Assembly (NCBI RefSeq): GCF_021049305.1
Contig: NZ_CP088081.1
Span: 3,038,001 to 3,102,000 of the forward strand
DNA from: Ideonella dechloratans
Lineage (GTDB): Bacteria > Pseudomonadota > Gammaproteobacteria > Burkholderiales > Burkholderiaceae_C
Length of the DNA: 64,000 bases
Reading direction: 5' to 3'
Below are positions 1 through 22,571 of the stretch, piece by piece; position 1 is the stretch's first letter; each line of letters opens with the position of its first letter. A model generated the notes under the pieces. It was not told the DNA's origin. It saw nothing but the letters and a program-made list of their open reading frames with translations, and did no database searches. The position numbers and the translations under genes were made by a program.

Positions 1-426
1 CCCATCGGCGCTGCCGTATCCCGCGAGGCGGTCGAGCGCTTCCTGGCGCAGGCCTACCCAGACCGCTTCAGCCCCGCATCGCTCAAGTCCTTTGCCCAGA
101 ACGTCGCGGGTACCTGGACGGCCGCTGGTCTGCTCTCTGGCCACCGCAACAAGACCCGCTCGCAGCCGCTCGCGCACCCCGAATCCGTGACCCTGCTGCT
201 CTTCCTCGGGTATCTCGGGGGGCGTACCGGGCAACGCCTCTTCTCATCCGAATGGACGAATTTGCTGGGTGGCTCACCTGATGAGCTAGAGGCGCTTACA
301 AACTCCGCTTCGCACCGGGGCCTTCTCGTGTTCATGAATGCGGGCGGCGTCAAAGAGGTTCGTTTCCCTGGGTATCTCTCGCCCGAGGAAGAGCGCATTC
401 GTCAGGAGGTCTCACATGTCGTCTAG
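1..426 (+). CDS. brxA: BrxA-like protein (BREX, DUF1819), 3' part only
   Basis: This is the C-terminal 141 residues of an open frame that enters from the left edge, so the start codon lies outside the window. Family knowledge: BrxA is a small DNA-binding protein of the BREX phage-defence system, usually about 200 residues, encoded first or second in the operon. The visible part has the helical, Arg-rich middle (TWTAAGLLSGHRNKTRSQPL) and the closing segment around SHRGLLVFMNAGGVKEVRFP that I associate with BrxA C-termini. The decisive support is context: it overlaps brxB by 11 nt and is followed by brxC, pglX, pglZ and brxL. The identification of this single fragment is moderately sure; as part of a BREX operon it is very likely. 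Confidence 0.75.
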   Translation, partial: PIGAAVSREAVERFLAQAYPDRFSPASLKSFAQNVAGTWTAAGLLSGHRNKTRSQPLAHPESVTLLLFLGYLGGRTGQRLFSSEWTNLLGGSPDELEALTNSASHRGLLVFMNAGGVKEVRFPGYLSPEEERIRQEVSHVV

Positions 427-979
427 GGTCACCAAGCTGGCTGCTGCCTATCGGCAGCACCTGTCGGTGCCGTGGCAGGCCGGGCTTGCCGCTATCCAGC
501 GCGTCATCTTTGCGGTCTATGACAAGGCCGACGAGCTTCGCCTGCGTGCCAACGTCGGCGAGTTCGAACTCGCCACCCAGCAGGCAGGCAAGCAGTGGCT
601 GCTGTTGGACGTGACCAATGCCTTCCCGCTGTGGATGGCAGCCCAGGAGTACCGCGACGCGTACTTCGAGTCACCCGAAGACCTGGCCGGCTACCAGACC
701 GGAGAGCTCACGGAGTTCGTCGCAGACCTGACGGCGAAGCTGAAGGCCAGGATTGCCGCAGAGGCCGGCCCCGATACGGTCGTTGCCTTGCTAGGCGTAG
801 GAGCGCTGTTCGGCCTCGCTCGGGTGTCTTCGGTTGTCGAGGGCATCAAGGAAAGCGTGCAGGGCCGGCTGCTCGTCTTCTTCCCGGGCGAACACCACCC
901 GGAGAACCACACCTACCGCCTGCTGGATGCACGCGACGGCTGGAACTACCTCGCCGTGCCGCTGCTCGCCCAGGAATGA
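416..979 (+). CDS. brxB: BrxB, BREX protein of the DUF1788 family
   Basis: A 187-residue protein of the usual BrxB length. BrxB is an essential core component of type 1 BREX with no settled biochemical role. The recognisable part is the C-terminal half, with VALLGVGALFGLARVSSVVE, GRLLVFFPGEH and YRLLDARDGWNYLAVPL, a highly conserved DUF1788 block. I chose the ATG at 416 because an AGGAGG ribosome-binding site lies 6 nt upstream and the start overlaps the end of brxA. An upstream in-frame ATG at 338 would run deep into brxA without a ribosome-binding site. brxC follows after 38 nt, so brxA-brxB-brxC read as one transcription unit. Confidence 0.93.
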   Translation: MSSRVTKLAAAYRQHLSVPWQAGLAAIQRVIFAVYDKADELRLRANVGEFELATQQAGKQWLLLDVTNAFPLWMAAQEYRDAYFESPEDLAGYQTGELTEFVADLTAKLKARIAAEAGPDTVVALLGVGALFGLARVSSVVEGIKESVQGRLLVFFPGEHHPENHTYRLLDARDGWNYLAVPLLAQE

Positions 980-1017
980 CGCAACGCACCACCTGAAGAA
1001 CCAAAGCAAGGACCACC

Positions 1018-4000
1018 ATGCTGAACAGGGATATCTATAACAAAGCCCCGAAGGAAAACCGCCTCGTCAACAACGGCGTGGCCGAGGTCTCCGAAGACCA
1101 CTCCGAGGCCGCGCAGGCCATCCTGCGCTACGAACTCGAGACCTTTGTCTGCGACGGTCAGTACGAGAAGGGCCTCGAGACCATCCTCGACAAGTTCCTG
1201 CTCAACCTCGACTCCAAGACCGAGCAGCCGGGGGTGTGGATTTCCGGCTTCTATGGCAGCGGCAAGTCGCACCTGGCCAAGATGCTGCGCACGCTGTGGA
1301 CCGACTACCAGTTCGCCGACGGCGCCACCGCCCGCAGCATCGCCAAGCTGCCCACGGGCGTGTTCGAGCACCTGAAGGAGCTCTCCACCCAGGGCAAGCG
1401 CCACGGTGGCCTGCACGCCGCAGCGGGCAAGCTGGGCGCCGGTGCCGGTGACAAGGTGCGGCTCGCGCTGCTGGGCATTGTGTTCAAGTCCAAGGGGCTA
1501 CCCGAGCAGTACAACCAGGCGCAGCTCGTCTTGTGGATGAAGCGCGAGGGCATCCTGGACGCCGTCGAGGCGGAGCTGCAGACCGCTGGCCGTTCGCTGG
1601 CGCAAGAGCTGCCTCACATGTACGTCTCTGGTCCACTGACCAAGGCGCTGCTGAAGGCCCGGCCGGACTTGGCGCACACTGAGGCAGATGCCCGCAAGCT
1701 GCTCAAGGAGCAGTTCCCCCAGGTGACCGACGTCACCAGCGAACAGATGACCTCAGCCATTGAGCTCGCTCTTTCCGAGGAGGGCAAGTTCCCGCTGACC
1801 CTGGTGGTCCTTGACGAGGTACAGCAGTACATCGGCAATGACGGGGCGAAGTCCATAGATGTGCAGGAGCTTGTCGAAACCCTGTGCAAGCACTTCAAGG
1901 GTCGGCTTCTGCTTGTTGCCACCGGGCAGTCCGCGCTCTCAGGGACACCCACTCTCCAGCGGCTGATGGCTCGGTTCCCAATCCCGGTCATGCTGGGCGA
2001 CTGGGACGTGGAGAACGTCACCCGGCAAATCATCCTGGCCAAGAAGCCCTCAGTTCAGCCGGAGGTCGAGAAGGTCTGGCGGTCCAACCTTGGCGAAATC
2101 TCTCGCCACTTGCGCGGCACCAAGCTCGAGCACGTGACCGACGACGAGAGCGTCATGACGTCCGATTACCCGCTGCTGCCAGTGCGTCGCCGCTTCTGGG
2201 AACGTGTTCTCCGGAGCATTGACACCACCGGCACCGTCTCGCAGCTGCGCAGTCAGTTGCGCGTCGTCCATGAAGCGGTGCTGGCCACCGCCGAGGCACC
2301 GCTGGGGCACGTGGTTTCTGGCGACTTCCTCTACGACCAGATTGCCGCGAACTTGGTCTCCACAGCGCAGCTGCCCAAGGAGGTTTTCGAGAACGTCCAG
2401 CGTTTTGCAGCCGGTGACGCGAACGCCCAGCTCAAAGCCAAGCTGCTCAAGCTCATCTACCTCATCAACAAGCTGCCGGCTGACGCGGCGATGGACCTGG
2501 GCCTGAAGGCCACAGAGGAAGCGTTGGCAGACCTGCTGGTCACCGACTTGGCGGCCGGCTCTTCGGAGCTGCGCAAGTCGCTGCCGGCCCTGTTGGAAGA
2601 GCTGCAGAACAAGGACCGCTTGGTCATGGCCCTGGCCGGCGGCAACGGCACCGAGTATCGGCTGCAGACCCGAGAGTCCAGCGCCTGGTACGACGAGTTC
2701 CGTGCCCAGGAGACTGAGCTTGAGGCGGCTCCACAACGTGTTGAGCAGAAGCGGGCCGAGCTGCTGAAGACTCGATTCGCCGAGGTCCTCAAGAAGGTTC
2801 GCGTCACCCAAGGCAAGGGGAACGAGGTTCGCGCACTCATCCCTACCTTCGATGACACGCTCCCTAAGGACAACGACAAGTGCCTGTACCTGTGGATTCA
2901 AGACGGCTGGCAGACCGAGGAGAAGTCGGTCGTTGCTGATGCCAAACGCACCAGCTCGGACAACCCAACCCTTTTCGTCTATCTGCCTGCTGAGAACAAG
3001 TCAGTCCTCTCGAAGGCCATCGTTGCGCTGGAAGCAGCACGCACCACGCTCCAGAAGAAGGGCAATCCGTCCACCGAAGAGGGCCGCGACGCGCAGCGCT
3101 CGATGGAGAGCCGCCAGCGCAACGCCGAAAAAGAGCTGGCCGAGCTGGTGGACAAGCTGATGGCCGGCGTGCGCGTATTTCAGGCCGGCGGTCAGGAGGC
3201 CACCGACGGCAATGACCTGGCCGACCGCATCAACCGCGCGGCCAAGTCTTCGGCCATCCGCCTGTACAGCCAGTTCGATGCCGCAGACCACGAACAGTGG
3301 GGCAAGGTGCTGGACGAAGCCCGCAAAGGCAATCTGGAAGCCTTGAAGGCTGTTGGCCATACCCAGGAGGCCGACAAGCACCCGGTCTGCCAGAAGTTGC
3401 TGGGCTTCATCGGCCCCGGCAAGAAGGGCTCGGAGATTCGCGAGAACTTCGAGGCCCCGCCCTACGGCTGGCCGCGTGACGCAATTGACGGTGCGCTCTA
3501 CGCGCTGCTGGCGTCCGGGCATGTCAACGCCACCGATGCCGCGTCCAAGCCTGTCGACGCCAAGAGCCTGGACCGCGCCAAGGTCACCCAGACGAGCTTC
3601 CGGCGCGAGAGCATCAACATCACGCCGATTCAGCTCATCAAGATTCGCAAGCTGTTCGACGCCGTGGGCGTGCCCTGCCAGCCCAAGGAAGAGCTGAACC
3701 GGATGCCAGCCTTGCTGGCCAAGCTGCGCGAGCAGGCGTCCAAGGCTGGTGGCCCTGCACCAGCGCCAGAGGCACCAAAGCTCATCGTCATCGAAGCCAT
3801 CGAGGCGCAGAGCGGCAACGCACAGCTGCTGGAACTGTTCACCCGGCACGACGAGGTGCTGGCCCTCTCACAAGGCTGGACCAAGACCGCGGCCGAGATT
3901 GCGAAGCGCATGCCTGCGTGGCACAAGCTGGGCGACCTGCTTCGTCATGCGAAAGCCCTCGGCCCCTACGCCAAGCTGAAGGCTGAGGCCGATGCCATCG

Positions 4001-4479
4001 AGGCCCAGCGCAGCTTGCTGGCGGACCCAGACCCTGTTCGCCCTCTGTTGGACGAGACGGTCGACCTGCTGCGCCAGGCCCTGAAGGCCAAGCTGGACGC
4101 CTTCCAACAAGGCTTCGCCCAGCAGCAGGCCCTGCTGCAGCAAGACGCTGACTGGAACAAGCTCGGCAACACCCAGCGCGATGAACTGACAGTCAAGCAC
4201 CACCTGACGCCGCCACCGTCCGTGGCCACCGGCACGCCCGAGCAGCTGCAGGACGCCTTGGACGACTGCGACCTTGACCACTGGGTCTCTAAGACCCAGG
4301 CCTTGCCCAGCCGGTTCGAAGCGGCGCGGCATGCCGCGGTGCAACTGCTCAAGCCCAACGTGGTCCACGTGGCCATCCCCAAGCGAACCTTGAACGACGA
4401 GGCAGAGCTTCAGTCGTGGTTGTCGGAGGTTGAAGCGCTGATTCGCACCAAGCTGAAGTCTGGCCCAGTCAGCCTCTGA
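1018..4479 (+). CDS. brxC: BrxC, BREX P-loop ATPase
   Basis: A 1153-residue P-loop ATPase, normal length for BrxC. It starts with the short conserved N-terminal block (NRDIYNKAPKENRLVNNGV) seen in BrxC proteins. Walker A is GFYGSGKS at residues 77-84 and a Walker B-like LVVLDEVQQY is at 262-271. The C-terminal two thirds are helical with a long charged region. BrxC is a core BREX component needed for phage restriction and, in several systems, for host methylation; its exact reaction is unknown. The gene sits 38 nt after brxB and 47 nt before the GTPase gene. In canonical type 1 loci pglX would follow directly, so the next gene is an insertion. No frameshift or missing motif is visible. Confidence 0.93.
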   Translation: MLNRDIYNKAPKENRLVNNGVAEVSEDHSEAAQAILRYELETFVCDGQYEKGLETILDKFLLNLDSKTEQPGVWISGFYGSGKSHLAKMLRTLWTDYQFADGATARSIAKLPTGVFEHLKELSTQGKRHGGLHAAAGKLGAGAGDKVRLALLGIVFKSKGLPEQYNQAQLVLWMKREGILDAVEAELQTAGRSLAQELPHMYVSGPLTKALLKARPDLAHTEADARKLLKEQFPQVTDVTSEQMTSAIELALSEEGKFPLTLVVLDEVQQYIGNDGAKSIDVQELVETLCKHFKGRLLLVATGQSALSGTPTLQRLMARFPIPVMLGDWDVENVTRQIILAKKPSVQPEVEKVWRSNLGEISRHLRGTKLEHVTDDESVMTSDYPLLPVRRRFWERVLRSIDTTGTVSQLRSQLRVVHEAVLATAEAPLGHVVSGDFLYDQIAANLVSTAQLPKEVFENVQRFAAGDANAQLKAKLLKLIYLINKLPADAAMDLGLKATEEALADLLVTDLAAGSSELRKSLPALLEELQNKDRLVMALAGGNGTEYRLQTRESSAWYDEFRAQETELEAAPQRVEQKRAELLKTRFAEVLKKVRVTQGKGNEVRALIPTFDDTLPKDNDKCLYLWIQDGWQTEEKSVVADAKRTSSDNPTLFVYLPAENKSVLSKAIVALEAARTTLQKKGNPSTEEGRDAQRSMESRQRNAEKELAELVDKLMAGVRVFQAGGQEATDGNDLADRINRAAKSSAIRLYSQFDAADHEQWGKVLDEARKGNLEALKAVGHTQEADKHPVCQKLLGFIGPGKKGSEIRENFEAPPYGWPRDAIDGALYALLASGHVNATDAASKPVDAKSLDRAKVTQTSFRRESINITPIQLIKIRKLFDAVGVPCQPKEELNRMPALLAKLREQASKAGGPAPAPEAPKLIVIEAIEAQSGNAQLLELFTRHDEVLALSQGWTKTAAEIAKRMPAWHKLGDLLRHAKALGPYAKLKAEADAIEAQRSLLADPDPVRPLLDETVDLLRQALKAKLDAFQQGFAQQQALLQQDADWNKLGNTQRDELTVKHHLTPPPSVATGTPEQLQDALDDCDLDHWVSKTQALPSRFEAARHAAVQLLKPNVVHVAIPKRTLNDEAELQSWLSEVEALIRTKLKSGPVSL

Positions 4480-4526
4480 GAGGTCCCATCGAACCAGGCA
4501 CCGTTTTCCAAGGGAGAAGCAAGTAC

Positions 4527-7490
4527 ATGAAGTCCCCACGCCAGGTCCGCAGCGACATTCGCACGCTGGCCCACCACATCGACCATGTCCGCGAGGCGCT
4601 GCTGCGTCGAGCCGACGTCGAGATTGCCCAGGTGGGCAAGGAGTGCAAGCGCACCTCCGATGCGCTGGCCAAGCTGCTGGACGAGCAGAAGCTTCCAGAG
4701 AACTACAAAGTGGCCGTCGTGGGCCGCTTCAAGGCGGGCAAGTCCTCCTTCGTCAACGAACTGCTTGACGCCCGGCTGGCCAGCGAAGACACCAACCCGG
4801 AGACGGCGGCCGTCACCACCTTCCGCCATGGCGATGAAGTCAAGGCCACCATCCGCTTCCTGGCGCGTGACGAGTGGACCAAGATTCAGAGCCTCTACCA
4901 GCAAGACCCTCGCCACATCGACGCTCACCGGGTGCTCAAGTGGCACGAGCTCGGCAAGCCGCGCAAGAACAAAGACGGCGAGATGGAGGAGGGCTACGAC
5001 CTCCAAGCGCTGGAGAGGGAGTACATCCGTGACGGCGGCTTCAGCATCGAGATTCGCCTGGCCAACGACGGCACCAAGAAGGCCGAAGCCGATTTTCGGC
5101 GGCGCCTGAAGGAGTTCACCACCGGCACCAAACCGCATCACTGCATGGTGCTTGGCATCGAAATCGAGTCGCCTGCGCCCATCCTGGATGGCGGGGTGCT
5201 GCTCATCGACACCCCGGGTCTGGGGGACACCGAGCGCTACCGTGTCGAGCTCACCGAGAAGGTGGTCGACGATGTGGACGCCGTCCTCTTCCTCACCCGC
5301 TCGGGCGCTTCCTACGACCAGGCGGAGAAGGACTTCCTGCTCTCCCTGCTCCGCAAGGGCACCGTCAAGCAGCTCATCGTCGTGGTGACGCAGGTCGACG
5401 TGACCTACCAACAGCACCTGGACAACGCCGAGGCCAACGATGACGACCCCGACCCGGTCGCACGCCGCATCGACCTCGAGCGCCAGCGACTGACCAAGGA
5501 GCTGGCCGACACCCTGGCGGAGCTGAGCCAGGATGATTCGCCAGCCATGCGGCGCTACCGCGAGCAACTCGGCGACGTGCAGATTGCCTTCACGTCGGCC
5601 AAGCTCCACCGCGATTGGAAGGCCGGTAAGCCGACGCTGTGCGCCATCCAATCGGACGACCCGGGCGGCGTTGAGCAGCTCAAGAGCCAGCTGCTCTACA
5701 TGCTGTCGACCGAATCTCGCCTTGCGATGGTCGCGCAGGGCATCGCCGCCGGCGCCCGTTCCGCGCTGCTAGAGCTGCAGTCGGTGCTCGACGCCAAGTT
5801 GCTCGCCATCCGTGACGTCAAGGACAGGGAGGTGGCGGAGCAGAAGCTCCGCAGCTTTCGTGGTGAGTTTGGGCAGGCTAGCCAGCGGTTTGAGGGCGCC
5901 GTTACGGAGCAGGTGACGCTGCTGGGCCAGCGGCTGGACGAGCGTGCCCGGCAGCACCGGTCATCGCTCGAAACGATTGCGCTGCTCGCTGAGCGCGAAC
6001 TCGTGGCCTTCGAGCTCAACGACGTGGCGCGCCACTGGCGCACCCGTCGGTCGGGCTACTGGGGCCACATGGCGGATTTCCAGACCCGGGTGGCCAACCG
6101 CATCTTTCCCAAGGTGCAGGAGATGCTCAGCGAGTACACCGACACCTTCGCTGAGTTCGCGCGGGGCTTTGAGACCCACCTCGACCGACTCTCGGCCGAG
6201 GGCGCGCGCATCGCCCAGTCGCTGGAGCTGGGTACCTCGCTGCCTTTCGATGTCACCAGCAAGCTCAAGGACTCGCTGGAAAAGAGCCTGGCCAGGGCCC
6301 AGGAGCTCATCGTCGCCAAAGAGCTCGAGGTCAACAAGCTCCTGTCGGACTTTGTCGATGACGAGGTCTCTGAGCGCATCGACCAGGCCCGTGAGAAGGT
6401 CAGCGATATCTGGGGTGCGGGCACCACGGTCAAGCAATCGGGAGAAGTCCAGGCCTTCTACCGCGAGGTGAAGGCATTGCTGACCGAAGCGCTGCAGACC
6501 TATCTGAAGGACAGCATCCAGGCCTTTGGCGCTTTCCTGGTCACAGAGGCCCAGGCAGCGCCGCGCGATGCACTGGCAGAAGTGAACATCCTGTTGGAGC
6601 AGGCCGACGACAACATTCGGGCGGCCGCCACGGCCCTGGTGGCGGGGCAGAAGCAGGCCACTGAAGACTTGGTGGCCACCATCAAGAGCGAGCACGACGA
6701 GGTGCTGACCCGTGCTTCCAGCCTCCTGGCAGTCGACGATGCGACGGCAGGCCATCCGGGTTCTCCAGCCACCTCGAGTGACGCCAGCACGCCAACCGCA
6801 TCAACCGCACCAGCCCGCGCCAAGTCGGAACAGGATGCGTCGGCTCCTGCAGTCGCAGCCGCCCCAGCTCCCAGTTCAGCGCCTGAACCTCAGCAGCCGG
6901 CCCCCACTCCAGCGCCTGCCCCGCAGCCGGAAGGCGCGTTCGAGCTGTCGGGCGATGGCGACTGGGCCGAGCAGGTGCAAACCGTTGCGCAGGTCACCCT
7001 GGAGCGCATTCGGCTGGGTAACGGCGAGAAGTCTTGGCCCTACGACCGGGTCTTCCCGGCCCGTTACCTGAAGGGGGCGGTTCGTATCAGGCTGATTGAC
7101 GGCTACCTGGCCGACCCACACCAACTGCGCAACCTCGGCGAGTTCCTCCTGCACCTGGCCGAGTCCGCTCGTCCCAAGGAGGTGGAGGTCCTCACCAAGT
7201 TCGCAGACGTGGATGCGACGGCCAAGCAGGACCGTGTGGTCGACAACTTGGCCAAGGAACTGTTCCGCGACTACGGGGTGACGCTCAGTCTGCGGCGCGA
7301 CGCTGACGTTCATGACCGCTTCCTGGTCATGGACCACGGCGTGCTCTTCAAGCTGGGCCGCGGGCTGGACTTCTACAAGCCAGCCACCGGCCTGGCGCGG
7401 CACCGCCCCGACCTGCGTGAGGTGCGCAAAAGCGAGGTGGATGTGTTCTGCGTCCAGGGCCATGCGCTCCTCAAGGCCAACACCGCATGA
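4527..7490 (+). CDS. Dynamin-like GTPase with C-terminal MIT_C (MITD1 PLD-like) domain, inside the BREX operon
   Basis: A 987-residue protein in three parts. Residues about 60-400 are a dynamin-superfamily GTPase: G1 GRFKAGKSS (66-74), G3 DTPGLGD (228-234) and G4-like TQVD (288-291). Residues about 400-735 are helical and charged, as in a dynamin stalk. A Pro/Ala/Ser-rich linker (about 739-806) leads to a C-terminal domain with VHDRFLVMD (from 928), GRGLDFYK (944-951) and a closing DLRE...EVDVF. That pattern matches the phospholipase D-like C-terminal domain of eukaryotic MITD1, which binds membrane lipids and lacks PLD activity. Inference: a membrane-acting GTPase recruited to lipid, possibly an abortive or envelope-surveillance arm of BREX. 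It lies 47 nt after brxC; pglX follows after 76 nt. The GTPase call is firm, MIT_C likely, the role unknown. Confidence 0.85.
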   Translation: MKSPRQVRSDIRTLAHHIDHVREALLRRADVEIAQVGKECKRTSDALAKLLDEQKLPENYKVAVVGRFKAGKSSFVNELLDARLASEDTNPETAAVTTFRHGDEVKATIRFLARDEWTKIQSLYQQDPRHIDAHRVLKWHELGKPRKNKDGEMEEGYDLQALEREYIRDGGFSIEIRLANDGTKKAEADFRRRLKEFTTGTKPHHCMVLGIEIESPAPILDGGVLLIDTPGLGDTERYRVELTEKVVDDVDAVLFLTRSGASYDQAEKDFLLSLLRKGTVKQLIVVVTQVDVTYQQHLDNAEANDDDPDPVARRIDLERQRLTKELADTLAELSQDDSPAMRRYREQLGDVQIAFTSAKLHRDWKAGKPTLCAIQSDDPGGVEQLKSQLLYMLSTESRLAMVAQGIAAGARSALLELQSVLDAKLLAIRDVKDREVAEQKLRSFRGEFGQASQRFEGAVTEQVTLLGQRLDERARQHRSSLETIALLAERELVAFELNDVARHWRTRRSGYWGHMADFQTRVANRIFPKVQEMLSEYTDTFAEFARGFETHLDRLSAEGARIAQSLELGTSLPFDVTSKLKDSLEKSLARAQELIVAKELEVNKLLSDFVDDEVSERIDQAREKVSDIWGAGTTVKQSGEVQAFYREVKALLTEALQTYLKDSIQAFGAFLVTEAQAAPRDALAEVNILLEQADDNIRAAATALVAGQKQATEDLVATIKSEHDEVLTRASSLLAVDDATAGHPGSPATSSDASTPTASTAPARAKSEQDASAPAVAAAPAPSSAPEPQQPAPTPAPAPQPEGAFELSGDGDWAEQVQTVAQVTLERIRLGNGEKSWPYDRVFPARYLKGAVRIRLIDGYLADPHQLRNLGEFLLHLAESARPKEVEVLTKFADVDATAKQDRVVDNLAKELFRDYGVTLSLRRDADVHDRFLVMDHGVLFKLGRGLDFYKPATGLARHRPDLREVRKSEVDVFCVQGHALLKANTA

Positions 7491-7529
7491 CAGCGAGGGC
7501 GCCATCGCACACCAGGTGACGTGACGCGC

Positions 7530-7544
7530 GTTACCTCGTTACCT
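7530..7544 (+). promoter_or_regulatory. 15-base motif GTTACCTCGTTACCT upstream of pglX
   Basis: The motif is two direct GTTACC hexamers separated by TC, 22 nt before the pglX start. The identical 15 bases recur at 17717-17731 upstream of brxL. Both lie in the only two intercistronic gaps of this operon longer than about 50 nt, which suggests an internal promoter or operator. The function is inference. Confidence 0.5.
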
Positions 7545-7566
7545 CACAGGGAAGACAAAGAACACC

Positions 7567-10995: not shown

Positions 10996-10997
10996 GC

Positions 10998-12119
10998 ATG
11001 GGCTTCTGGCATACCGGCTACGCCGAGTTCCATGAGCCGACAGGCCTGGGGGAGTACGTCTACACCCCGCCCCCGCCGGTTCGCTACGCCTGCGAGCATT
11101 GCGCGCAGTCGTTCTCGGACCTGGAGGCACTTCGCAAGCACCGGTTTGAACAGCATCCGGTGCGGCAGCCCGCCTTGCTGCTGCGGGGTAAGCCCGTGGG
11201 CGCCTTGACGCAGGTGCTGATGACGCCGCTCGGTCCTGCCGACGCGCTGGTGGAAGACGCGACCGCCTGCCTACTGAACGGGGAGCCGATTCCGCCGGCA
11301 CGCCTGGGCGAGCAGCTGGCAGCCATGCGGCATGCGTTCGCCGATGTGGTGCTGAGCAACCAAGGGGCGACCACGCGCTGTCAGCTGGACTTCCGGGTTG
11401 CCGATGAAGGCCATCTCGCGGGCGTTGAAGCCGCTTTTCTGCGGCTCGCCCGAGACCGGTTGCTGAACATCCAGTCGGTGTCGCGGTTCAACGAAGACTG
11501 CCGCGCCTTCGCGAGCGCCATGCCGTATTGCGACGGCATCTCGCACTACCTGTACGGGGTGATGGCCAAGGAGCGCTCTCCCGACAGTGGGCTGAAGCAC
11601 GAGGAGTACATCCAGCGCTTCCTGCGCTCATCGGAAGAGCTCTCGGGCTTCGACCGACCGTTGGCGCGCAGCGTTCGCTCCCTGGTGGCCTTCCACTTCA
11701 ACCAGTTCGACGATGCCGAATGCCTGGCGCCGGAAGGTGCGCTACGTCACGCGGCAGGTGCGTTCGCCGGTTTGCTTCAGGGTCTGCCTTGGCACTTCGA
11801 CGAGGCGTTCTCGCCCGCTCCAGGCAGTGCTGTGGAAGACCTGCTGACCGACCAGGACACGCTGCAAGTCCTGGCCGATGCCAGCCACGGCCTGGTCGGC
11901 CTGAAGGCGCGCGCCGAGGAGCTGCTGGTGCATCTCCGCCGCGCCCCGGCGGGCGGCTACGACCACATGAAGCGCATGTTGCTGGCCTGCGAGGCGTTGG
12001 CGGCACGCGATGAAGCGGCTTGGCATGCAGAAGCACGGAAGCTGGCGCGAGCGCTGGCCGGCAAGCCGGATACCAGCGCCTGGGCGAACGCGATGCTGGA
12101 GCGGCTTTCGACACCATGA
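10998..12119 (+). CDS. C2H2 zinc-finger protein of unknown function in the BREX operon
   Basis: A 373-residue protein I cannot assign to a known BREX family. Near the N-terminus it has a textbook single C2H2 finger: C32-x2-C35-x12-H48-x4-H53, with the hydrophobic F39 and L45 in the expected places. The remaining 320 residues are mostly helical, with a middle part (about 95-230) that looks globular and no obvious catalytic motif. Single C2H2 fingers are uncommon in bacteria and usually bind DNA or protein. The gene starts 2 nt after pglX stops, and its last codons overlap the next start (ATGA), so it is very probably translated with pglX. Inference: an adaptor linking the methyltransferase to nucleic acid or to the chaperone-like gene downstream. 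Confidence 0.8.
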   Translation: MGFWHTGYAEFHEPTGLGEYVYTPPPPVRYACEHCAQSFSDLEALRKHRFEQHPVRQPALLLRGKPVGALTQVLMTPLGPADALVEDATACLLNGEPIPPARLGEQLAAMRHAFADVVLSNQGATTRCQLDFRVADEGHLAGVEAAFLRLARDRLLNIQSVSRFNEDCRAFASAMPYCDGISHYLYGVMAKERSPDSGLKHEEYIQRFLRSSEELSGFDRPLARSVRSLVAFHFNQFDDAECLAPEGALRHAAGAFAGLLQGLPWHFDEAFSPAPGSAVEDLLTDQDTLQVLADASHGLVGLKARAEELLVHLRRAPAGGYDHMKRMLLACEALAARDEAAWHAEARKLARALAGKPDTSAWANAMLERLSTP

Positions 12120-13549
12120 AAGAGCAAAAGCGCAAGAAGCCGAAGCGCTACGACTACCGAGCACGAGTTCTGGCGGTCAAGAGTGAGCAGCGGCAACGAC
12201 AAGAAGGAAATAAAGCGATGGCGACCTCTGGAACGCCCCCTGTCACTGCACCTGGTGCAGTTGCACCCGTGACGCCGGCTCCCGTGCCAACGGAGGTCTT
12301 GAAAGCCGACGCCCAAGGGCCCGTGTCTGTTGCCGAGCCTCCTGTGGCCGCTGCGGACGCTGCCGTTGTGACGCCACCTGAAGCGCCGTTGGCCCCTGCG
12401 ACCGCGGAAGCCGCGGAGCTGCGGCCATCATTCGAGGTGCCTTCGACCGATGTGAAGACTGTCCCGTCGCCCAGCCCAGCAGCGGCGGGTGAAGGCAGTT
12501 CAGAGGCGGCCAAGAGCGAGCCCGCCGGGAAGAAGCCCAAAGCAGAGCCGGAAACGCTGGAGCAGTTCATCGAGTACGCCTATGGACGCAAAGGGCAACC
12601 GCTGACGCTCAAGTCCAAGGTCGAGAAGCAAATCGCGCAGAACGCTCGGCTCGACGATGCGGCACTCAGCCGCCTGCTGCACCTGGCCAAGGGCGACACG
12701 CTGCTGGCGGTACCGCGACAGATTCTGCTGCTGAGCCAAGAGGTCACGGGCCTGCCAGGCTTGAAGGCAGCGCTAACGTCGTTCGTGTCGAACGTCATGC
12801 TGCGCCACCCAGTGTTCAGCGATGCCGGGGTGCAGGGGGCGTTGCGCAACCTGCCTGAGGGTTTGCCACCCCCTGAGGCTTTGGCCAGGGTGGCCGCGTT
12901 CGAGCCGTCTCCGAGTGCAGAGGCGGAGCCCCTCAAGGGCGGCGACCTGCGGGACCTGCGGCACAACGCCGTCCGCTTGTTTGTGACCTGGCTGGCCGTA
13001 AACCGGAGTCTCAACTCGGAAGAGTTGTCGTCGCTGCTGTTCCAGGTGGTCTGGCAGCCAGCGGCCAAAGACCTGGCCGATGACAACGCACGCCTGCGGG
13101 CTCTGACGGACATTGGGCAGGCGGCCGGGGTGGGCTTGGCATGCCAGCGCTTCCGTCAGCAAGCCATCGAGGCACGGACACAGCAAGACCAGGCCCAGCG
13201 AGAGGCGACAAGCCTGCGTGACCGTTTGTCCGCCTCCGAGACCCAGCTCGCCGATACCGCACAACAGCTTGACGACGTTCGGGCGGAGCTGCAGGCGCTG
13301 CGGGAAAGTTCCTATGCAGAGCTGGAGGCCCTGCGCCGGCAGCACGCCGTCGAAAAGACCCATCTGCAGCACGAATTGGAGCAACTGCGCGGTCGCCTGG
13401 TGAAGCGCTTGACAGACAGCGTCGACATGCTCGAGGTCGGTTTGTCCGCGCTGCGCAAGGACACGCCCCGCGTCCCGGTCATGGTGGAGCGGGCTGAGCA
13501 TGTGGTCGATGCACTGAGAGCCGAAGTTCAAGAGTTGAGGGAGGAGTGA
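12116..13549 (+). CDS. Pro/Ala-rich, coiled-coil protein of unknown function in the BREX operon
   Basis: A 477-residue protein with no family I recognise. Visible parts in order: a very basic N-terminus (MKEQKRKKPKRYDYRARV); a low-complexity Ala/Pro/Val/Thr linker (about residues 35-150); a helical globular centre (about 150-360); and a Gln/Glu/Leu/Arg-rich coiled coil (about 365-477) typical of an oligomerisation arm. The ATG at 12116 was chosen because it overlaps the upstream stop in an ATGA arrangement; an in-frame ATG at 12020 would lie within the zinc-finger gene. The Hsp70-like gene follows after 3 nt. Constant coupling to that gene suggests a partner or co-chaperone-like scaffold, but this is inference from position only. 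Confidence 0.75.
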   Translation: MKEQKRKKPKRYDYRARVLAVKSEQRQRQEGNKAMATSGTPPVTAPGAVAPVTPAPVPTEVLKADAQGPVSVAEPPVAAADAAVVTPPEAPLAPATAEAAELRPSFEVPSTDVKTVPSPSPAAAGEGSSEAAKSEPAGKKPKAEPETLEQFIEYAYGRKGQPLTLKSKVEKQIAQNARLDDAALSRLLHLAKGDTLLAVPRQILLLSQEVTGLPGLKAALTSFVSNVMLRHPVFSDAGVQGALRNLPEGLPPPEALARVAAFEPSPSAEAEPLKGGDLRDLRHNAVRLFVTWLAVNRSLNSEELSSLLFQVVWQPAAKDLADDNARLRALTDIGQAAGVGLACQRFRQQAIEARTQQDQAQREATSLRDRLSASETQLADTAQQLDDVRAELQALRESSYAELEALRRQHAVEKTHLQHELEQLRGRLVKRLTDSVDMLEVGLSALRKDTPRVPVMVERAEHVVDALRAEVQELREE

Positions 13550-13552
13550 CGC

Positions 13553-15358
13553 ATGACCGTAGTTGGATTCGACTTTGGAACGACGAACAGCCTGGCCTCG
13601 GTGGTCATCGGCAATGAGGTCATCACCTTCCTGGAGAACGAGCAGCCGATTCCATCGGTCGTCAGCTTCGAAGGCGGGAAGGTGGAGGTGGGCCGGAAGG
13701 CCCACGACAAGCTCACCAGCGCGGGCCTCGGGGTGCAAGGCAGCACGGTGCGCTCGCCCAAGACACTGCTCGGGCGTGAGGAGCAGCTCATCGACGGGGT
13801 TCGGCGGGACCCGGTGAAGATGGTCGAGCACGTGCTGGACCACGTGCGGCGCTTCGTGCTGCAGACCAAGGCAGGTCGCGACCTGCCGATGGACCGTGTC
13901 GTGGCCACGATTCCAGTAAACATGGAGGGGCATCGCCGCGCGCTGCTGCGTCAGGCCTTCCGCCAGGCTGGCATGAGCGTGGTGCAGTTCGTTCATGAGC
14001 CGCTCGCGGCCCTGTATGGCTACCTGCGCATGTCCGAGGGAACCTCGGACCTCATCCGCCGCTACGACGGCAAGCTGCTGCTGGTGTTCGACTGGGGCGG
14101 CGGTACGCTGGACCTGACGCTCTGCCGGGTCTTGAACGGACTGCTGGTGCAGGTGGCCAACGACGGGACGGAGGAAGTCGGCGGTGACGTCTTCGACGAG
14201 GAGCTGCGCAACGAAGTGGAGAAACGCTCTCGTGCCGAGCAGGGGCTCGGGGATGATGTGGAGGTCTTGCCTGAGGCCCGTAAGCGGCTGCTGCACGAGT
14301 GCGAGAAGGCCAAGATTCGCCTGAGCGACCGCAGCACCTGGAACGTCTACGTCGACCCGTACTACCAGGACGACAAGCAGTCCGACCTGCAGGTGAACCT
14401 TTCCAGGGATGACCTGCAAGATATCGTGGGTCACCTGGTCAAGAAGGGTGTGGCGCGCATCGAGCGGCTGCTGGAGCGCGAGGGCTTCTCCACGGCGTCC
14501 GTGGAACTCTGCTTGGCCACGGGCGGCATGGTGAACATGCCCATGGTGAAGAACCGTCTGGACGAGCTGTTCGGCCCTGGACGGGTTCACGTCTCCAAGC
14601 GCAGTGCCTCCGCCATCGCCGAGGGGGCGGCCTGGGTGGCGCATGACCAGGCGCGGCTGCACCTGGCCAAGAACGTGGAGCTCGCCTTGGCCCGCAACTC
14701 CTACATGCCGCTACTGCAGGCAGGGGTGGAGATGCCCATCGAGCGGGAGAACCGACGCGAGCGCTTCGACCTCTACTGCGTGGACCCCAGCGATGGGCAC
14801 GGCAAGTTCAGCCTGGTCAGCCCGCACCGGCCTGGGCCACGGGTGCTGGCCAATGACAAGCGGAGGCCCTTGTGCAACATGCTGCTGAAGGTTGATGGCA
14901 AGGCGCAACCGTTCCGAGAGCGCCTTGGTCTGGAGGTCAACATCGATGAGAACCTCGTGTTGACCGCGACCGCCTGGTCGCTCAATCAGAAGGGAAAGGC
15001 GGTGGCGGAGGTGCACGACCTCGAGTTCGCCTTGGCGACCCCGGGAGCACGCAACAGTTGGCTCAACGCCAGCCTGCTGGGCTCCGACGGTGAAGTCAGC
15101 CCGAACGAGCCCGGTGACCTGTCGATGCGGTCGAACATCGCGGCGCGGGAGGACGTCAGTCTGGTCCCCGGGGAGGTGCTGTACCGCCACAACCCGTACT
15201 ACTTCCGCGTCGAGCAGAACCCGCCGCAGGTTCAGGTCGAAGAGCGCCTGTACTACGAGCCCTGCGCGATGTGCGGGCGTGCGTCAAACGACCCCCTCTG
15301 CAGATGCGCGTCTCTGTTGGCCTCTCGCCAGCAGCCCAGCGGGAGGCTGAACGCATGA
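13553..15358 (+). CDS. Hsp70/DnaK-like ATPase with C-terminal Cys knuckle, in the BREX operon
   Basis: A 601-residue Hsp70-superfamily protein. The actin-like ATPase domain is complete: phosphate-1 loop GFDFGTTNS (5-13), phosphate-2 FDWGGGTLDL (179-188) and an adenosine-site ATGGMVNMP (about 322-330). After it, about 200 residues replace the normal substrate-binding domain: a short beta-rich part, then C571-x2-C574-x8-C583-x-C585, probably a metal knuckle. The helical lid and the EEVD-like tail of DnaK are missing, so this is not the housekeeping chaperone. It lies 3 nt after the coiled-coil gene and overlaps pglZ by 4 nt (ATGA). Family knowledge: divergent Hsp70s occur in some prokaryotic conflict systems. 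Inference: an ATP-driven switch that senses or remodels a BREX or phage component. Confidence 0.88.
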   Translation: MTVVGFDFGTTNSLASVVIGNEVITFLENEQPIPSVVSFEGGKVEVGRKAHDKLTSAGLGVQGSTVRSPKTLLGREEQLIDGVRRDPVKMVEHVLDHVRRFVLQTKAGRDLPMDRVVATIPVNMEGHRRALLRQAFRQAGMSVVQFVHEPLAALYGYLRMSEGTSDLIRRYDGKLLLVFDWGGGTLDLTLCRVLNGLLVQVANDGTEEVGGDVFDEELRNEVEKRSRAEQGLGDDVEVLPEARKRLLHECEKAKIRLSDRSTWNVYVDPYYQDDKQSDLQVNLSRDDLQDIVGHLVKKGVARIERLLEREGFSTASVELCLATGGMVNMPMVKNRLDELFGPGRVHVSKRSASAIAEGAAWVAHDQARLHLAKNVELALARNSYMPLLQAGVEMPIERENRRERFDLYCVDPSDGHGKFSLVSPHRPGPRVLANDKRRPLCNMLLKVDGKAQPFRERLGLEVNIDENLVLTATAWSLNQKGKAVAEVHDLEFALATPGARNSWLNASLLGSDGEVSPNEPGDLSMRSNIAAREDVSLVPGEVLYRHNPYYFRVEQNPPQVQVEERLYYEPCAMCGRASNDPLCRCASLLASRQQPSGRLNA

Positions 15359-17691
15359 CCGTGACCTTTGCGAACAGACTGTCCGAGTCGCTCGTCAAGG
15401 CCGCAGCGGGCAATTCGCATACTGCAGCCGCTGCTGCTGCCGTGCTCTGGACCGACAAGGAGCGTCAGTGGGAGAGCGCCCTGACGCGGCTTCGGGCCAG
15501 CATGCCGCAGCTTCTGACACTGGGTGATTTCAATCTAGACGCCAGGAGCGGCCCAGCGGTCTGGCTCAAGTGCGCAATTGCCGCTGTGTTGCCAGAGGTT
15601 CAGTTCAAGGGCGTGCCCGTCGTCTACCTCCCCGGGGTGAGCCGAGCGGAGCTGCGGGCCATCGAGAGCTGCACTCGGGACCTACAGCCGCTGGCTGAGC
15701 TGCAGTACCGGGGCGTGTTCTGGAGCCAGGTCAACACCAAGGACTGGACGGTCAGCGCGTTCCTGTCTTCGAAGCACGGTGGCCTTGGGCTGGACGTGGC
15801 GCAGGACAAGGCAACGCAGGAGGCCCTGGCCCAGGTGCTGTCAGCCGGCGTGTTACTCGACAGGCCGCTGGACGAGCTGAAGGGCCGGCAAATCAACGCC
15901 GAGTGGCTGCTGAGCCTGCTGGCACCAAATCCGACCCGAGACCTGCTGGTGTGGATGAACGCCCCCCAAGCAACGCAGAAGGACTGGGTCGGCGTACGTT
16001 GGGACGTGTTCTCGAAGCGGGCAAAGTCCGACTTCGGCTTCGACCCGGTCAGCGACGGGCCCCTGGTGGCCGCTGAGAAGCTGGCCCGACGCGAGGGCAA
16101 GTGGGTGGCCGTGGCTGAGCTCTATCGGGATTCGTTCACGAGCTTCCCAGAGGTGCTGACGCTGCTCCGCACCGTACAGCCACCGCAGTTGGGGCTGTTC
16201 CCGGACATGGACCCCCATGGACCTTTGGCCAGCTACCCGCAGGCCAATGAACAAGGCGAGGCCAGTCTGCGCTACGCGCTTTCCGCCTGCGCGGCCATGG
16301 ATGCCGCCCAGGCTCGCACCGCCATCGCCACCGCCGAGAAGGAGCACGGTGCGCGCCGGGGTTGGCTGTGGTCGCGCATGGGGCATTCGCCCTTGGCTCA
16401 AGCGCTGGAGCACCTGGCTCGATTGGCCGAGCTGAGCGCGGCGGCGCCCATCGGCGCTACGCCTTCGGAGCTGGCTGCGAGCTACCAGCAGTCCGGGTGG
16501 CTTGTGGATGAGGCGGCGACGCAGGCCATGGGCGCCGTGCAAACCAAGGCAGACACCGACGCCGTTGGAGCCGCAGTGCGCGCCGTCTACCTGCCCTGGC
16601 TGGAAGAAGCGGCCAAGCGACTGCAGGACACCGTGAAGAAGGTGGGGGGCATGCCAGCCCTGCAGTCGGCATCGGACGCAGCAACTGATACAGGCACATG
16701 CACGGTGTTCGTGGATGGCCTGCGGTACGACGTCGCCCAGCGGTTGCGTGCCAAGTTGGAAGGTCTGGGCACCACGACGTTGGCGGCCCGTTGGACCTGC
16801 ATGCCGTCGGTCACGGCGTCCGGCAAGGCTTGGTGCTCGCCAGTGGCGGGGCTGGTGTCCGGCACGGCGGAAGACGTGGAGTTCGAGCCCCGTGTTGCGG
16901 CGGACGGCAAACCGCTCTCTGGCCACAACTTCAGGAAGCTGCTGACCGACAACGGCGTGCAGCCGCTGGACAAGCACGAGACGGGTGACCCGAGCGGACG
17001 CGCCTGGACGGAGTCGGGCGACCTGGACCACTACGGCCACGAGCACGGCGTTCGTCTTGCGCGAGACGTGGATGCTCAGCTGGCCACGGTGGTAGAACGG
17101 GTGCAGGAACTGCGCGATGCGGGGTGGCGCCGGGTGCGCATCGTCACCGACCACGGCTGGCTGCTGGTTCCTGGTGGCTTGCCGAAGACGGAGTTGCCCA
17201 AACACCAGGCCGAGACCCGCTGGGGACGCTGCGCTGTCCTCAAGGACACGGCACACGGCACCCCGCTGACCTTCGGCTGGGATTGGTGTAAAGATGTCCA
17301 GGTGGCGTATGCGCCAGGTGTGTCGTCCTTCATTGCTGGAGCCGACTACGCGCACGGTGGCTTGAGCCTGCAAGAGTGCCTGGTGCCGGTGCTGGACCTG
17401 GTGGTGGCTGCGCCTGCGGCAGCGGCACAGGTCGCCATCAAGGCAGTGACCTGGAAAGGCCTGCGCTGCGTGGTCGAGGTGGACAGCTCGTCGGCCGGCC
17501 TGACGGTGGACGTGCGGACGAAGCCCGCGCTGGCAACGTCGAGCCTGGTGGCCAGCGTGAAGCCCCTGGAGGCCGGCAAGGCCAGCGTGGCGGTGGCCGA
17601 CGACGACAACCTGGGCGCAGCGGCCGTGGTCGTCATCCTGGGAGCCGATGGCCAGGTGCTGCAGAAGCAGGCGACGACGGTGGGTGGCTGA
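15355..17691 (+). CDS. pglZ: PglZ, BREX alkaline phosphatase-superfamily protein
   Basis: A 778-residue PglZ. The alkaline phosphatase-like metal site shows as VFVDGLRYDVA (first Asp at residue 454) and IVTDHGW (Asp599, His600), as in other BREX PglZ proteins. PglZ is the one protein found in nearly all BREX types; purified relatives show metal-dependent hydrolase or nuclease activity, but the in vivo substrate is unknown. The ATG at 15355 overlaps the Hsp70-like stop; an earlier in-frame ATG at 15271 would overlap that gene by 88 nt. The C-terminus after about residue 700 is a beta-rich domain. brxL follows after a 107-nt gap that carries the motif shared with the pglX leader. Confidence 0.93.
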   Translation: MTVTFANRLSESLVKAAAGNSHTAAAAAAVLWTDKERQWESALTRLRASMPQLLTLGDFNLDARSGPAVWLKCAIAAVLPEVQFKGVPVVYLPGVSRAELRAIESCTRDLQPLAELQYRGVFWSQVNTKDWTVSAFLSSKHGGLGLDVAQDKATQEALAQVLSAGVLLDRPLDELKGRQINAEWLLSLLAPNPTRDLLVWMNAPQATQKDWVGVRWDVFSKRAKSDFGFDPVSDGPLVAAEKLARREGKWVAVAELYRDSFTSFPEVLTLLRTVQPPQLGLFPDMDPHGPLASYPQANEQGEASLRYALSACAAMDAAQARTAIATAEKEHGARRGWLWSRMGHSPLAQALEHLARLAELSAAAPIGATPSELAASYQQSGWLVDEAATQAMGAVQTKADTDAVGAAVRAVYLPWLEEAAKRLQDTVKKVGGMPALQSASDAATDTGTCTVFVDGLRYDVAQRLRAKLEGLGTTTLAARWTCMPSVTASGKAWCSPVAGLVSGTAEDVEFEPRVAADGKPLSGHNFRKLLTDNGVQPLDKHETGDPSGRAWTESGDLDHYGHEHGVRLARDVDAQLATVVERVQELRDAGWRRVRIVTDHGWLLVPGGLPKTELPKHQAETRWGRCAVLKDTAHGTPLTFGWDWCKDVQVAYAPGVSSFIAGADYAHGGLSLQECLVPVLDLVVAAPAAAAQVAIKAVTWKGLRCVVEVDSSSAGLTVDVRTKPALATSSLVASVKPLEAGKASVAVADDDNLGAAAVVVILGADGQVLQKQATTVGG

Positions 17692-17716
17692 ACGAAGCCA
17701 AGCTAGGGACGGAGCT

Positions 17717-17731
17717 GTTACCTCGTTACCT
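17717..17731 (+). promoter_or_regulatory. Second copy of GTTACCTCGTTACCT, upstream of brxL
   Basis: Identical over 15 bases to 7530-7544 upstream of pglX. Here it lies 67 nt before the brxL start, in the only long gap in the second half of the operon. A third hexamer-like GGTAC follows directly, so a tandem operator bound by an undetected regulator is possible. The function is inference. Confidence 0.5.
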
Positions 17732-17798
17732 GGTACAGAGATAGAGAACAGCAAGGCGGGCGACCGGCTCCAGACAGGTCGCAGATGGGTGATTGACG

Positions 17799-19844
17799 AT
17801 GCAACTCGACGACTTGGACAGGAAGGCAACCGCTGCCTTCGAAGGCTACGTGGTACGCAAGGACCTGGTGCGGACGTTCAGCCGCCAGTTCCCCGTGCCG
17901 ACGTACGTGGTCGAGTTCCTGCTGGGCCGCTACTGCGCCACCACCGATGAGGCAGAAATCCAGGAGGGCCTGGATATCGTCCAGCGGCAACTGGCGTCGC
18001 GGACAGTGAAGGCCGGTGAAGAGGAGCTCTTCAAGGCCCGTGCTCGCGAGGCCGGTTCCGTGAAGATTATCGATATCGTCACGGCGCGCCTGGACTCGAA
18101 GACCGATTCCTACATCGCCAGCTTGCCCAGCTTGCGCCTCACGGACGTGCGGCTCACGCCCGAGATGGTCAAGGAGAACGAACGCATGCTCACCGGCGGC
18201 TTCTACGCCGAGGTGACGCTGGGCTACGACGCGTCCATCGCGCAGGAGAAGGGCGGGCGGCCCTTTGGTGTCGAGGCGCTGCGGGCCATCCAGCTCTCGA
18301 AGCGCGAGACGCTGGACGTTCTGGCCAAGGGGCGGGAGCAGTTCTCCACCGCCGAGTGGCGCGACCTGCTGCTGCGCAGCGTCGGCTTTGAGCCCGAGAC
18401 CCTGTCGGAACGCGCCAAGGATGCGCTGCTGCTGCGCATGGTGCCGTTCGTGGAGCGCAACTACAACCTGGTGGAGCTCGGCCCTCGGGGCACCGGCAAG
18501 TCGCACCTGTTCCAGCAGGTGTCACCGTACGCCCACCTCATCTCCGGTGGCAAGGCGACCGTGGCCCGCATGTTCGTCAACAACGCCAGCGGCCAGCGCG
18601 GTCTGGTCTGCCAGTACGACGTGGTGTGCTTTGACGAGGTGTCTGGTGTGTCCTTCGACCAGAAGGACGGCGTCAACATCATGAAGGGCTACATGGAGAG
18701 TGGCGAGTTCTCCCGGGGCAAGGAGAGCATCCGGGCGGACGGCTCCATTGTGCTGGTGGGCAACTTCGACGTTGACGTGGAGCACCAGCAGCGCATCGGC
18801 CACCTCTTCGGGCCGCTGCCGCCCGAGATGCGGGACGACACGGCGTTCATGGACCGCATTCACTGCTTCCTGCCGGGCTGGGATGTTCCGAAGCTGAACC
18901 CCACGCTGTTCACCGCCCACTTTGGCCTGGTGAGCGACTTCCTGTCGGAGTGCTTCACCCAGCTGCGCAACCAGAGCCGGGTATCGACGCTGCAAGGGCG
19001 TGTGCGCTGGGGCGGTGCGCTGTCGGGCCGAGACCTCAACGGCGTCAACAAGACCGTGAGCGGCCTGCTGAAGCTGATGTACCCCGGCTCGGACATGGCG
19101 GTCAGCGAAGAAGACCTTGAGTGGGCCGTGCGCCTGGCGCTGGAAGTGCGCCGCCGGGTCAAGGAGCAGCAGAAGCGCATCGGCGCCGCCGAGTTTCGCA
19201 ACACCCACTTCAGCTACACCCTGGGCGCCGAGGGCGTTGAGAAATTCGTCAGCACACCGGAGTTGCAGAGCCAAGGCGGCATTGGCGACGAGCCGCTGGA
19301 GTGCGGCCAAGTCTGGGTGCTGAGCCCCGGCGGTGACGAGGAGCACCCGGGTCTCTTCAGGCTCGAGGTCAATGAGGGGCCAGGGAGCGGGGTGCGGGTG
19401 CTGAACAACCCAGTGCCAGCCGCCTTCAAGGAGTCCATCCGCTGTGCGGAGCAGAACCTGTACGCACGGGCCCAGCAGCTGGTCGGAGACCGGGACCCGC
19501 GGTCCCACGAGTTCTCAGTGCAATTGCGTGGCTTTGATGCCGCCAAGGCCGGCGCCAAGACCGGCGTCGGAGCGCTCATCGCGCTGTCCAGCGCACTGCT
19601 GAAGAAGTCCGTACGCGGTGGATTGGTGGTTGCCGGTGAGGTGACGCTGGGCGGCACCATCGAGCCCATTCACAACGCCGTCACGCTTGCTGAAATCGCC
19701 GTCGAGAAGGGTGCCAAGTCCCTGCTGCTGCCGGTCTCATGCCGTCGGCAGTTGTTCGACCTTTCTGACGAGATGGCGACCAAGCTCGACATCGAGTTCT
19801 ATCAGGACGGGCGCGATGCTTTGTTGAAGGCATTGACAGAGTAG
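17799..19844 (+). CDS. brxL: BrxL, BREX AAA+ ATPase with Lon-like C-terminal domain
   Basis: A 681-residue BrxL, normal length. The AAA+ core has Walker A GPRGTGKSH at residues 228-236 and Walker B-like VVCFDEVSG. The C-terminal 140 residues align by eye with the Lon protease domain (VVAGEVTLGGTIEPI), but the Lon catalytic Ser of the GPSAG loop reads GAKTG here and no catalytic Lys follows, so it should not be proteolytic. BrxL relatives form ring-shaped DNA-binding motors and are required for type 1 BREX restriction. I chose ATG 17799; an in-frame TTG lies 6 nt upstream, and neither has a strong ribosome-binding site. It is the last clear BREX gene and identifies the locus as type 1-like. 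Confidence 0.93.
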   Translation: MQLDDLDRKATAAFEGYVVRKDLVRTFSRQFPVPTYVVEFLLGRYCATTDEAEIQEGLDIVQRQLASRTVKAGEEELFKARAREAGSVKIIDIVTARLDSKTDSYIASLPSLRLTDVRLTPEMVKENERMLTGGFYAEVTLGYDASIAQEKGGRPFGVEALRAIQLSKRETLDVLAKGREQFSTAEWRDLLLRSVGFEPETLSERAKDALLLRMVPFVERNYNLVELGPRGTGKSHLFQQVSPYAHLISGGKATVARMFVNNASGQRGLVCQYDVVCFDEVSGVSFDQKDGVNIMKGYMESGEFSRGKESIRADGSIVLVGNFDVDVEHQQRIGHLFGPLPPEMRDDTAFMDRIHCFLPGWDVPKLNPTLFTAHFGLVSDFLSECFTQLRNQSRVSTLQGRVRWGGALSGRDLNGVNKTVSGLLKLMYPGSDMAVSEEDLEWAVRLALEVRRRVKEQQKRIGAAEFRNTHFSYTLGAEGVEKFVSTPELQSQGGIGDEPLECGQVWVLSPGGDEEHPGLFRLEVNEGPGSGVRVLNNPVPAAFKESIRCAEQNLYARAQQLVGDRDPRSHEFSVQLRGFDAAKAGAKTGVGALIALSSALLKKSVRGGLVVAGEVTLGGTIEPIHNAVTLAEIAVEKGAKSLLLPVSCRRQLFDLSDEMATKLDIEFYQDGRDALLKALTE

Positions 19845-22289: not shown

Positions 22290-22381
22290 TGCAGCACGGC
22301 TTTCAACGCCTGGTTTTGCTTGGCAGCGCGGGCTACTCCCGCGCCGAGCTTCCGCTGGATGGCGCAGTCTCCCTGGTGGCG

Positions 22382-22387
22382 CCCAAC
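22382..22387 (+). repeat. Target site duplication CCCAAC, left copy
   Basis: Six bases directly before the left end of the insertion sequence, identical to 25044-25049 directly after its right end. IS21-family elements make 4-8-bp duplications. Confidence 0.88.
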
Positions 22388-22413
22388 TGCGTATTCCACG
22401 CGATGGCGGACAC

Positions 22414-22502: not shown

Positions 22503-22571
22503 CACCTGCGGGGTGTTCTGAGTGACCCGAACGCGGCATACGCTGCCCGGTTTTTTTGACCGGAGCCAGCG

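Follow-up and report, generated by a model that had tools for sequence, protein, structure and literature searches.

Related systems

The closest described relatives of the operon reported here are the type 1 bacteriophage exclusion (BREX) systems with a type B PglZ (NF033450). The operon occupies positions 1 to 19844 of a 64,000-nucleotide stretch from Ideonella dechloratans (contig NZ_CP088081.1, positions 3,038,001 to 3,102,000), called the window below. It has the same core gene order and profiles as those systems. It also contains four guest genes. One encodes a dynamin-like GTPase and lies between brxC and pglX. The other three, the trio, lie between pglX and pglZ and encode a C2H2 protein, a coiled-coil protein, and an Hsp70-like ATPase. 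The operon differs from its relatives in these guests: the trio was found in one of 19 assessable unselected loci and the GTPase in none of the 18 in which the interval between brxC and pglX was visible. The locus is probably a type 1 PglZ-B BREX with two cargo bays, which carry an autonomous Hsp70-type module and a dynamin-PLD effector.

Foreign auxiliary or backup effectors within core BREX operons are described in passages of Rakesh and Krishnan (NAR 2026, PMC12839542). According to the same passages, the Lon domain of BrxL gives way to an HKD domain that carries an HRD motif in 1030 of 2913 Type-1 BREX taxa with BrxL. This HRD-type HKD domain resembles the tail of the window GTPase, which matches BrxL tails. 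The main text of that paper contains no word match for Hsp, chaperone, GTPase, MIT_C, or C2H2 and three for zinc finger.

CoCoNuT systems, as portrayed in the relevant passages of PMC11090510, are like the trio in having a coiled coil, zinc motifs, and an Hsp70-like protein near restriction genes, including those of BREX. They differ in being McrBC based and in having a degenerate Hsp70-like protein, and no C2H2 cassette appears in the passages on them. Hma is described in part of the PADLOC paper (PMC8565338) as a helicase, a methylase, and an ATPase. The main text of that paper has no match for Hsp70, zinc, or chaperone. Bacterial dynamin-like proteins (PDB 5owv and 2j68; LeoBC in PADLOC) have the Dynamin_N GTPase domain in common with the window GTPase. 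The latter differs from them in its C-terminal MIT_C/PLD-fold domain, as in MITD1 and some BrxL proteins.

No description of the cassette was found in searches of open-access papers; subscription papers and supplements were outside the search. The sequence-only reading of this DNA had not recognized the combination as a characterized system, and no named BREX subtype with the GTPase and the trio was found in the literature searched.

Gene order and BREX core

Ten open reading frames, all on the forward strand, were read from the sequence in the order brxA-brxB-brxC-GTPase-pglX-C2H2-coiled coil-Hsp70-pglZ-brxL. The frames, gaps, and overlaps given in the sequence-only reading were all confirmed. 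The six core genes are in one operon and all match PADLOC BREX models. BrxC, PglZ type B, and the long Lon-type BrxL were above the NCBIfam cutoffs in a profile search of the window proteins. By these profiles, the core is a type 1 BREX with PglZ type B, and the type 1-like order proposed earlier stands.

The 3' part of brxA lies at 1 to 426 (PADLOC BrxA, 221.7 bits). It is cut by the window edge, and its start and the rest of the frame are upstream in L007. The gene brxB (416 to 979) scored 251.4 bits against PADLOC BrxB and 26.5 bits against Pfam BrxB, just under the cutoff of 26.8. The gene brxC (1018 to 4479) scored 889 bits against NF033441 (cutoff, 400) and 1,619 bits against its PADLOC model. 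The methyltransferase gene pglX (7567 to 10995) has an Eco57I/N6_Mtase match and scored 1,598 bits against PADLOC PglX. It scored 334 bits against NF033452, for which the cutoff is 500; this cutoff was not counted as a defining feature. The type B pglZ (15355 to 17691) scored 896 bits against NF033450 (cutoff, 400) and only 17 bits against Pfam PglZ (cutoff, 25). The gene brxL (17799 to 19844; possible alternative start, TTG at 17793) scored 641 bits against TIGR02653 (cutoff, 628). Its product has a BrxL_ATPase match (E value, 3.7e-130) and a Lon-type C terminus (Lon_C, 1e-9).

The trio is tightly coupled to the core. The C2H2 gene starts at 10998, after a 2-nucleotide gap from pglX, which ends at 10995. 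It overlaps the coiled-coil gene by ATGA at 12116 to 12119. A 3-nucleotide gap separates the coiled-coil gene, which ends at 13549, from the Hsp70 gene, which starts at 13553, and the Hsp70 gene overlaps pglZ by ATGA at 15355 to 15358. The GTPase gene is more loosely placed, 47 nucleotides from the end of brxC and 76 nucleotides from the start of pglX.

Guest proteins

The GTPase gene (4527 to 7490) encodes Dynamin_N at residues 62 to 289 (Pfam, 4.6e-21) and MIT_C, the PLD-like domain of MITD1, at residues 839 to 974 (Pfam, 7.5e-22). The protein has structure matches to PDB 5owv and to MITD1 (2ymb/4a5z). The G1, G3, and G4 motifs are invariant in all nine aligned GTPases. Of the HxK/R...D motif of HKD/PLD nucleases, H929 and R931 in MIT_C are present in 9/9 GTPases and the acidic residue (D) in 6/9; the domain may have nuclease activity. 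The tail matches the PADLOC BrxL model PDLC02508 (E value, 1.6e-17) and also occurs on three annotated plasmid BrxL proteins with 31 to 34% identity. The window BrxL retains its Lon-type tail; the PLD-like tail sits on the GTPase instead. A membrane role would be expected from the dynamin family.

The C2H2 gene is at 10998 to 12119. Its product has a finger at about residues 28 to 55, a beta domain at 57 to 133, and helical repeats at 136 to 373 in an AlphaFold2 model with a mean predicted local distance difference test score of 88.5. The finger of the window protein alone is under every Pfam cutoff. Its residues C32, C35, H48, and H53 are invariant in 34/34 aligned relatives. The helical repeats may be TPRs, as in a TPR co-chaperone.

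The coiled-coil gene is at 12116 to 13549. In the alignment, its product has a Pro/Ala-rich N terminus and a conserved C-terminal segment. It matched no family above curated cutoffs in Pfam or NCBIfam. The nucleotide exchange factor GrpE was tried as a candidate identity and was rejected (hhalign probability, 6.9, over the coil only).

The Hsp70 gene is at 13553 to 15358. Its product matches Pfam HSP70 (8e-42), with the best stretch covering residues 93 to 363, and has a C-terminal Cys knuckle (C571, C574, C583, and C585). Residues D7, K70, E149, D180, T185, and D187, which we take to be catalytic from their counterparts in DnaK, are invariant in 21/21 Hsp70s.

Distribution of the trio

A protein search with the C2H2 protein retrieved 275 relatives among 8,000 candidates scored, and the best 120 were listed. 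A genome scan with the C2H2 alignment gave 34 loci, of which 28 were evaluable. In three (L037, L039, and L043), the sequence stops inside the C2H2 gene or too soon after it, and three more (L040, L041, and L044) retain roughly the first 76 C2H2 residues alone. No locus reaches beyond 10 kb on either side, and four (L028, L032, L033, and L035) are shorter. Because the C2H2 protein and two short patterns were the seeds of the scan, the frequency of the coiled-coil or Hsp70 gene without C2H2 cannot be read from it. It also misses distant relatives.

The coiled-coil and Hsp70 genes follow the C2H2 gene in the same order and on the same strand in 28/28 evaluable loci, with Hsp70 split over two frames in L013. 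These loci span five phyla: Pseudomonadota, Candidatus Binatota, Acidobacteriota, Nitrospirota, and Actinomycetota. The trio is thus a real unit, as the sequence-only reading had it. It is also present on two viral contigs, one BREX borne and close to L017 (L083) and one standalone (L084).

Six of the 28 loci have the trio between pglX and pglZ (L011, L012, L013, L017, L021, and L025); the fetched stretch begins at or inside brxC in L011 and L021. In L023, the trio adjoins the remnants of a BREX, and in L022, the trio and the GTPase come directly after brxL, outside the BREX. The remaining 20 show no match to the BREX core in reach, except a PglX-like gene in L034. In 5 of these 20 (L014, L015, L016, L018, and L019), the GTPase is directly upstream of the trio. 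The GTPase and trio genes are consecutive in these five and in L022, and GTPase identity is 60 to 65%. In another of the 20, from Thiocapsa (L029), HmaA and HmaB flank the trio, which is preceded by two small genes.

Neighbors of the trio were picked by eye, without a random-locus control. They include an HKD-Snf2 protein (L014), a DUF1156 methyltransferase (L019), Schlafen (L016), and a LeoA-like GTPase (L033). In L020, there are an AAA_21 protein and a partner that fall into the BLAST families of the L052 PtuA/PtuB proteins. L042 has an HsdM-NACHT and an nSTAND-WD40 protein.

In three loci from Actinomycetota (L035:6898-8259, L038, and L061), the trio is followed by a protein of about 450 residues, a possible alternative partner. 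It belongs to the same BLAST family in L035 and L038, and the 446-residue neighbor in L061 is grouped with these by its size. The L035 protein had no Pfam or PADLOC match. The C2H2 fragments at L040:9959-10294 and L041:4820-5053 stand alone just after brxL of another BREX and precede a protein of about 510 residues. In L040, there is a GFWHTG motif and a finger, and the 510-residue protein had no Pfam or PADLOC match.

Occupancy of the two BREX slots

In each BREX in which the trio was found, it is between pglX and pglZ: in the six genome loci, the window, L053, and viral contig L083. The GTPase inside BREX is always between brxC and pglX (the window, L011, and L021). Positions inside BREX are fixed. 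All four genes share a BREX in the window, L011, and L021, but the GTPase and the trio also occur apart.

Other trio-bearing BREX loci have different contents between brxC and pglX. No insert is present in L012, L017, and L083 (88, 21, and 21 nucleotides). L013 has an AAA_21 gene and partner with lengths equal to those of the HEC-02-like pair in L056, L025 has a MazE/PIN pair, and L053 has a Schlafen protein. The trio can share its slot with GmrSD-family genes. In L011 and L025, these follow Hsp70 and precede pglZ; in L021, they come after pglX and before C2H2. The family was called by Pfam in L011 and by the same BLAST family in L021 and L025. Type IV genes of this family were frequent in or beside the BREX of L011, L021, L023, L025, L040, L055, and L058, at varying positions.

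For an unselected control, NF033450 was searched in overlapping sets of 60 relatives and 398 phylum, 399 order, and 369 class genomes; the genome of the window was among those listed. This gave 22 further PglZ-B loci above the cutoff. Three had no pglX in reach (L094, L099, and L103), and 19 were counted. Among the 19, L100 has its pglX and brxC spread over several frames; L095 and L097 are identically spaced and may be near-copies. The interval between pglX and pglZ is closed in four (L092, L095, L097, and L098) and has an insert of at least 1.6 kb in 15. The insert is the trio in one (L053) and something else in 14.

Eight plasmid PglZ-B loci were also fetched. L057, which has no pglX and has pglZ in two frames, and the weak plasmid PglZ matches H31 to H34 were left out. 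The trio was in none of the seven assessable plasmid loci, all of which have inserts between pglX and pglZ. Identified occupants of this slot were Septu PtuA/PtuB (L052), GmrSD (L055 and L058), AIPR (L054 and L064), and an AAA_21 protein (L063). By annotation, DarT/HNH (L059) and genes read as McrBC-like (L060 and L066) were also present.

A PglZ-B BREX from the same genus (G006, L056) has a HEC-02-like AAA pair between brxC and pglX and a different 1.6-kb insert between pglX and pglZ. A PglZ-B BREX of Haliscomenobacter is adjoined by a different Hsp70-family gene in the company of TerB and AAA genes (L066:19767-22292). The product of this Hsp70-family gene (97 bits) is encoded on the other strand, outside the slot, and was not counted to the trio subfamily.

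Selection and exchange

The ratios of nonsynonymous to synonymous substitution rates (dN/dS) between the window and its nearest relative, L011, were 0.09 for the GTPase, 0.10 for the C2H2 gene, 0.26 for the coiled-coil gene, and 0.013 for Hsp70. By this comparison, all four guests are under purifying selection. The ratios argue against a chance observation.

BREX-borne and standalone copies were mixed on a quick Hsp70 tree of 33 rows. BREX membership requires six changes on the tree, of which starred branches force four. The details of the tree are unsure because L053 and L084 are long branched.

PglX of the window (7567 to 10995) was also compared with that at L011:6597-9995. The specificity region, at about columns 420 to 840, is exchanged between the otherwise near-identical operons. 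Identity per 60-column block is 20 to 57% there and 70 to 100% elsewhere, save a short last block.

Interpretation

The synteny of the trio, its separability from BREX, the intact ATPase and GTPase motifs, the purifying selection, and the repeated changes between BREX and non-BREX settings were all seen by sequence comparison. We infer a defense role and a mechanism for the trio. Because both the GTPase and the trio also occur outside BREX, they look like separate and possibly new defense parts. Their slots and company suggest that the trio is an autonomous defense module, often partnered by the GTPase as effector; these activities are predicted.

The trio may act as a dedicated Hsp70 machine, in which the C2H2 protein would bind an infection-linked ligand by its finger and helical repeats and pass it to Hsp70. 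The coiled-coil protein would scaffold the complex or aid nucleotide exchange. ATP hydrolysis by Hsp70 would then switch a partner effector, which in Betaproteobacteria would often be the GTPase, working at the membrane or on nucleic acid via its PLD-like tail. BREX would restrict unmodified DNA first, and the cargo would be a second line when BREX fails. A more specific version, which we think rather unlikely, is that the cassette is a new immune module in which a chaperone-based sensor of a phage protein or misfolded product, built on an Hsp70 ATP cycle under the control of the zinc-finger and helical-repeat adaptor, triggers exchangeable effectors (the dynamin-PLD GTPase in Betaproteobacteria and the 450-residue protein in some Actinomycetota) and plugs into BREX or Hma or stands alone.

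The trio might instead be a dedicated assembly chaperone, which folds or assembles PglX/PglZ or HmaA/HmaB complexes and is not an immune sensor. It is set between core genes of both BREX and Hma, its Hsp70 ATPase residues are kept, and the Hsp70 constraint is like that of brxL (dN/dS, 0.013 versus 0.017). However, 18 of the 19 unselected PglZ-B loci do without the trio. The one scanned neighbor in each of L030, L031, and L036 is not a restriction gene; these are a luciferase-like monooxygenase, a TctA transporter, and an enolase. We consider a chaperone of this kind unlikely.

The sequence-only reading took the guests for an extension of BREX itself, in which the GTPase and the trio are working subunits that add a sensing or effector layer needing PglX and PglZ. 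The fixed place of the trio, its ATGA coupling, and the 2-nucleotide gap between pglX and C2H2, which is alike in L011, L012, L013, L017, L083, and the window, are consistent with this. The cotranslation proposed there does hold in this operon, but coupled frames with pglX and pglZ do not by themselves make the guests BREX subunits. Twenty of the 28 trio loci are without BREX in reach, and the guests are scarce in the unselected loci. The same-genus BREX in L056 has other inserts in both slots, and a GTPase homologue stands alone on a Thiodictyon plasmid (L085; 54.7% identity over 89%). The extension is not supported by these findings, and we judge it unlikely.

An RNA-targeting module resembling CnuD, the Hsp70-like protein of the CoCoNuT type IV restriction systems, is very improbable: passages of PMC11090510 describe coiled coils, zinc ribbons, and Hsp70-like proteins joined in CoCoNuTs and superoperons with BREX, but CnuD is described there with degenerate Walker A-like motifs, against invariant presumed catalytic residues here, and none of the ten window proteins matched an McrB/McrC family in the profile searches.

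Genomic island and neighboring genes

The operon seems to be on a tRNA-Pro island about 36.5 kb long. The tRNA-Pro(cgg) gene is at about genome position 3,033,549, and 46 bp of its 3' part recur at 32040 to 32085 (forward strand; exact match to L007 6549-6594), the likely far end. Genes for a WYL-domain regulator and a TrfA-like protein lie upstream of the window, as does a third gene, taken for a recombinase from inspection by eye alone.

A possibly Wadjet-like set with an IS21 element inside it is at 20422 to 28570. It encodes a 419-residue protein with no match, an 890-residue protein (weak JetC; E value, 8.5e-6), and a 356-residue protein (DUF7281; weak DUF2399). The IS21 element contains istA (22572 to 24116) and istB (24153 to 24890). 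A small gene before the set seems to be broken into two short frames. A HipA-like protein (30441 to 31799) adjoins the right island end.

Implications

When a BREX locus has extra genes, it is tempting to see the whole as a single large machine. This one is probably better described as holding two reusable modules in fixed bays. A conserved Hsp70 cassette that occurs in five phyla, in some cases inside restriction operons, would place chaperone-type ATPases among candidate phage sensors, and the cargo bays may offer a practical route to further defense modules.

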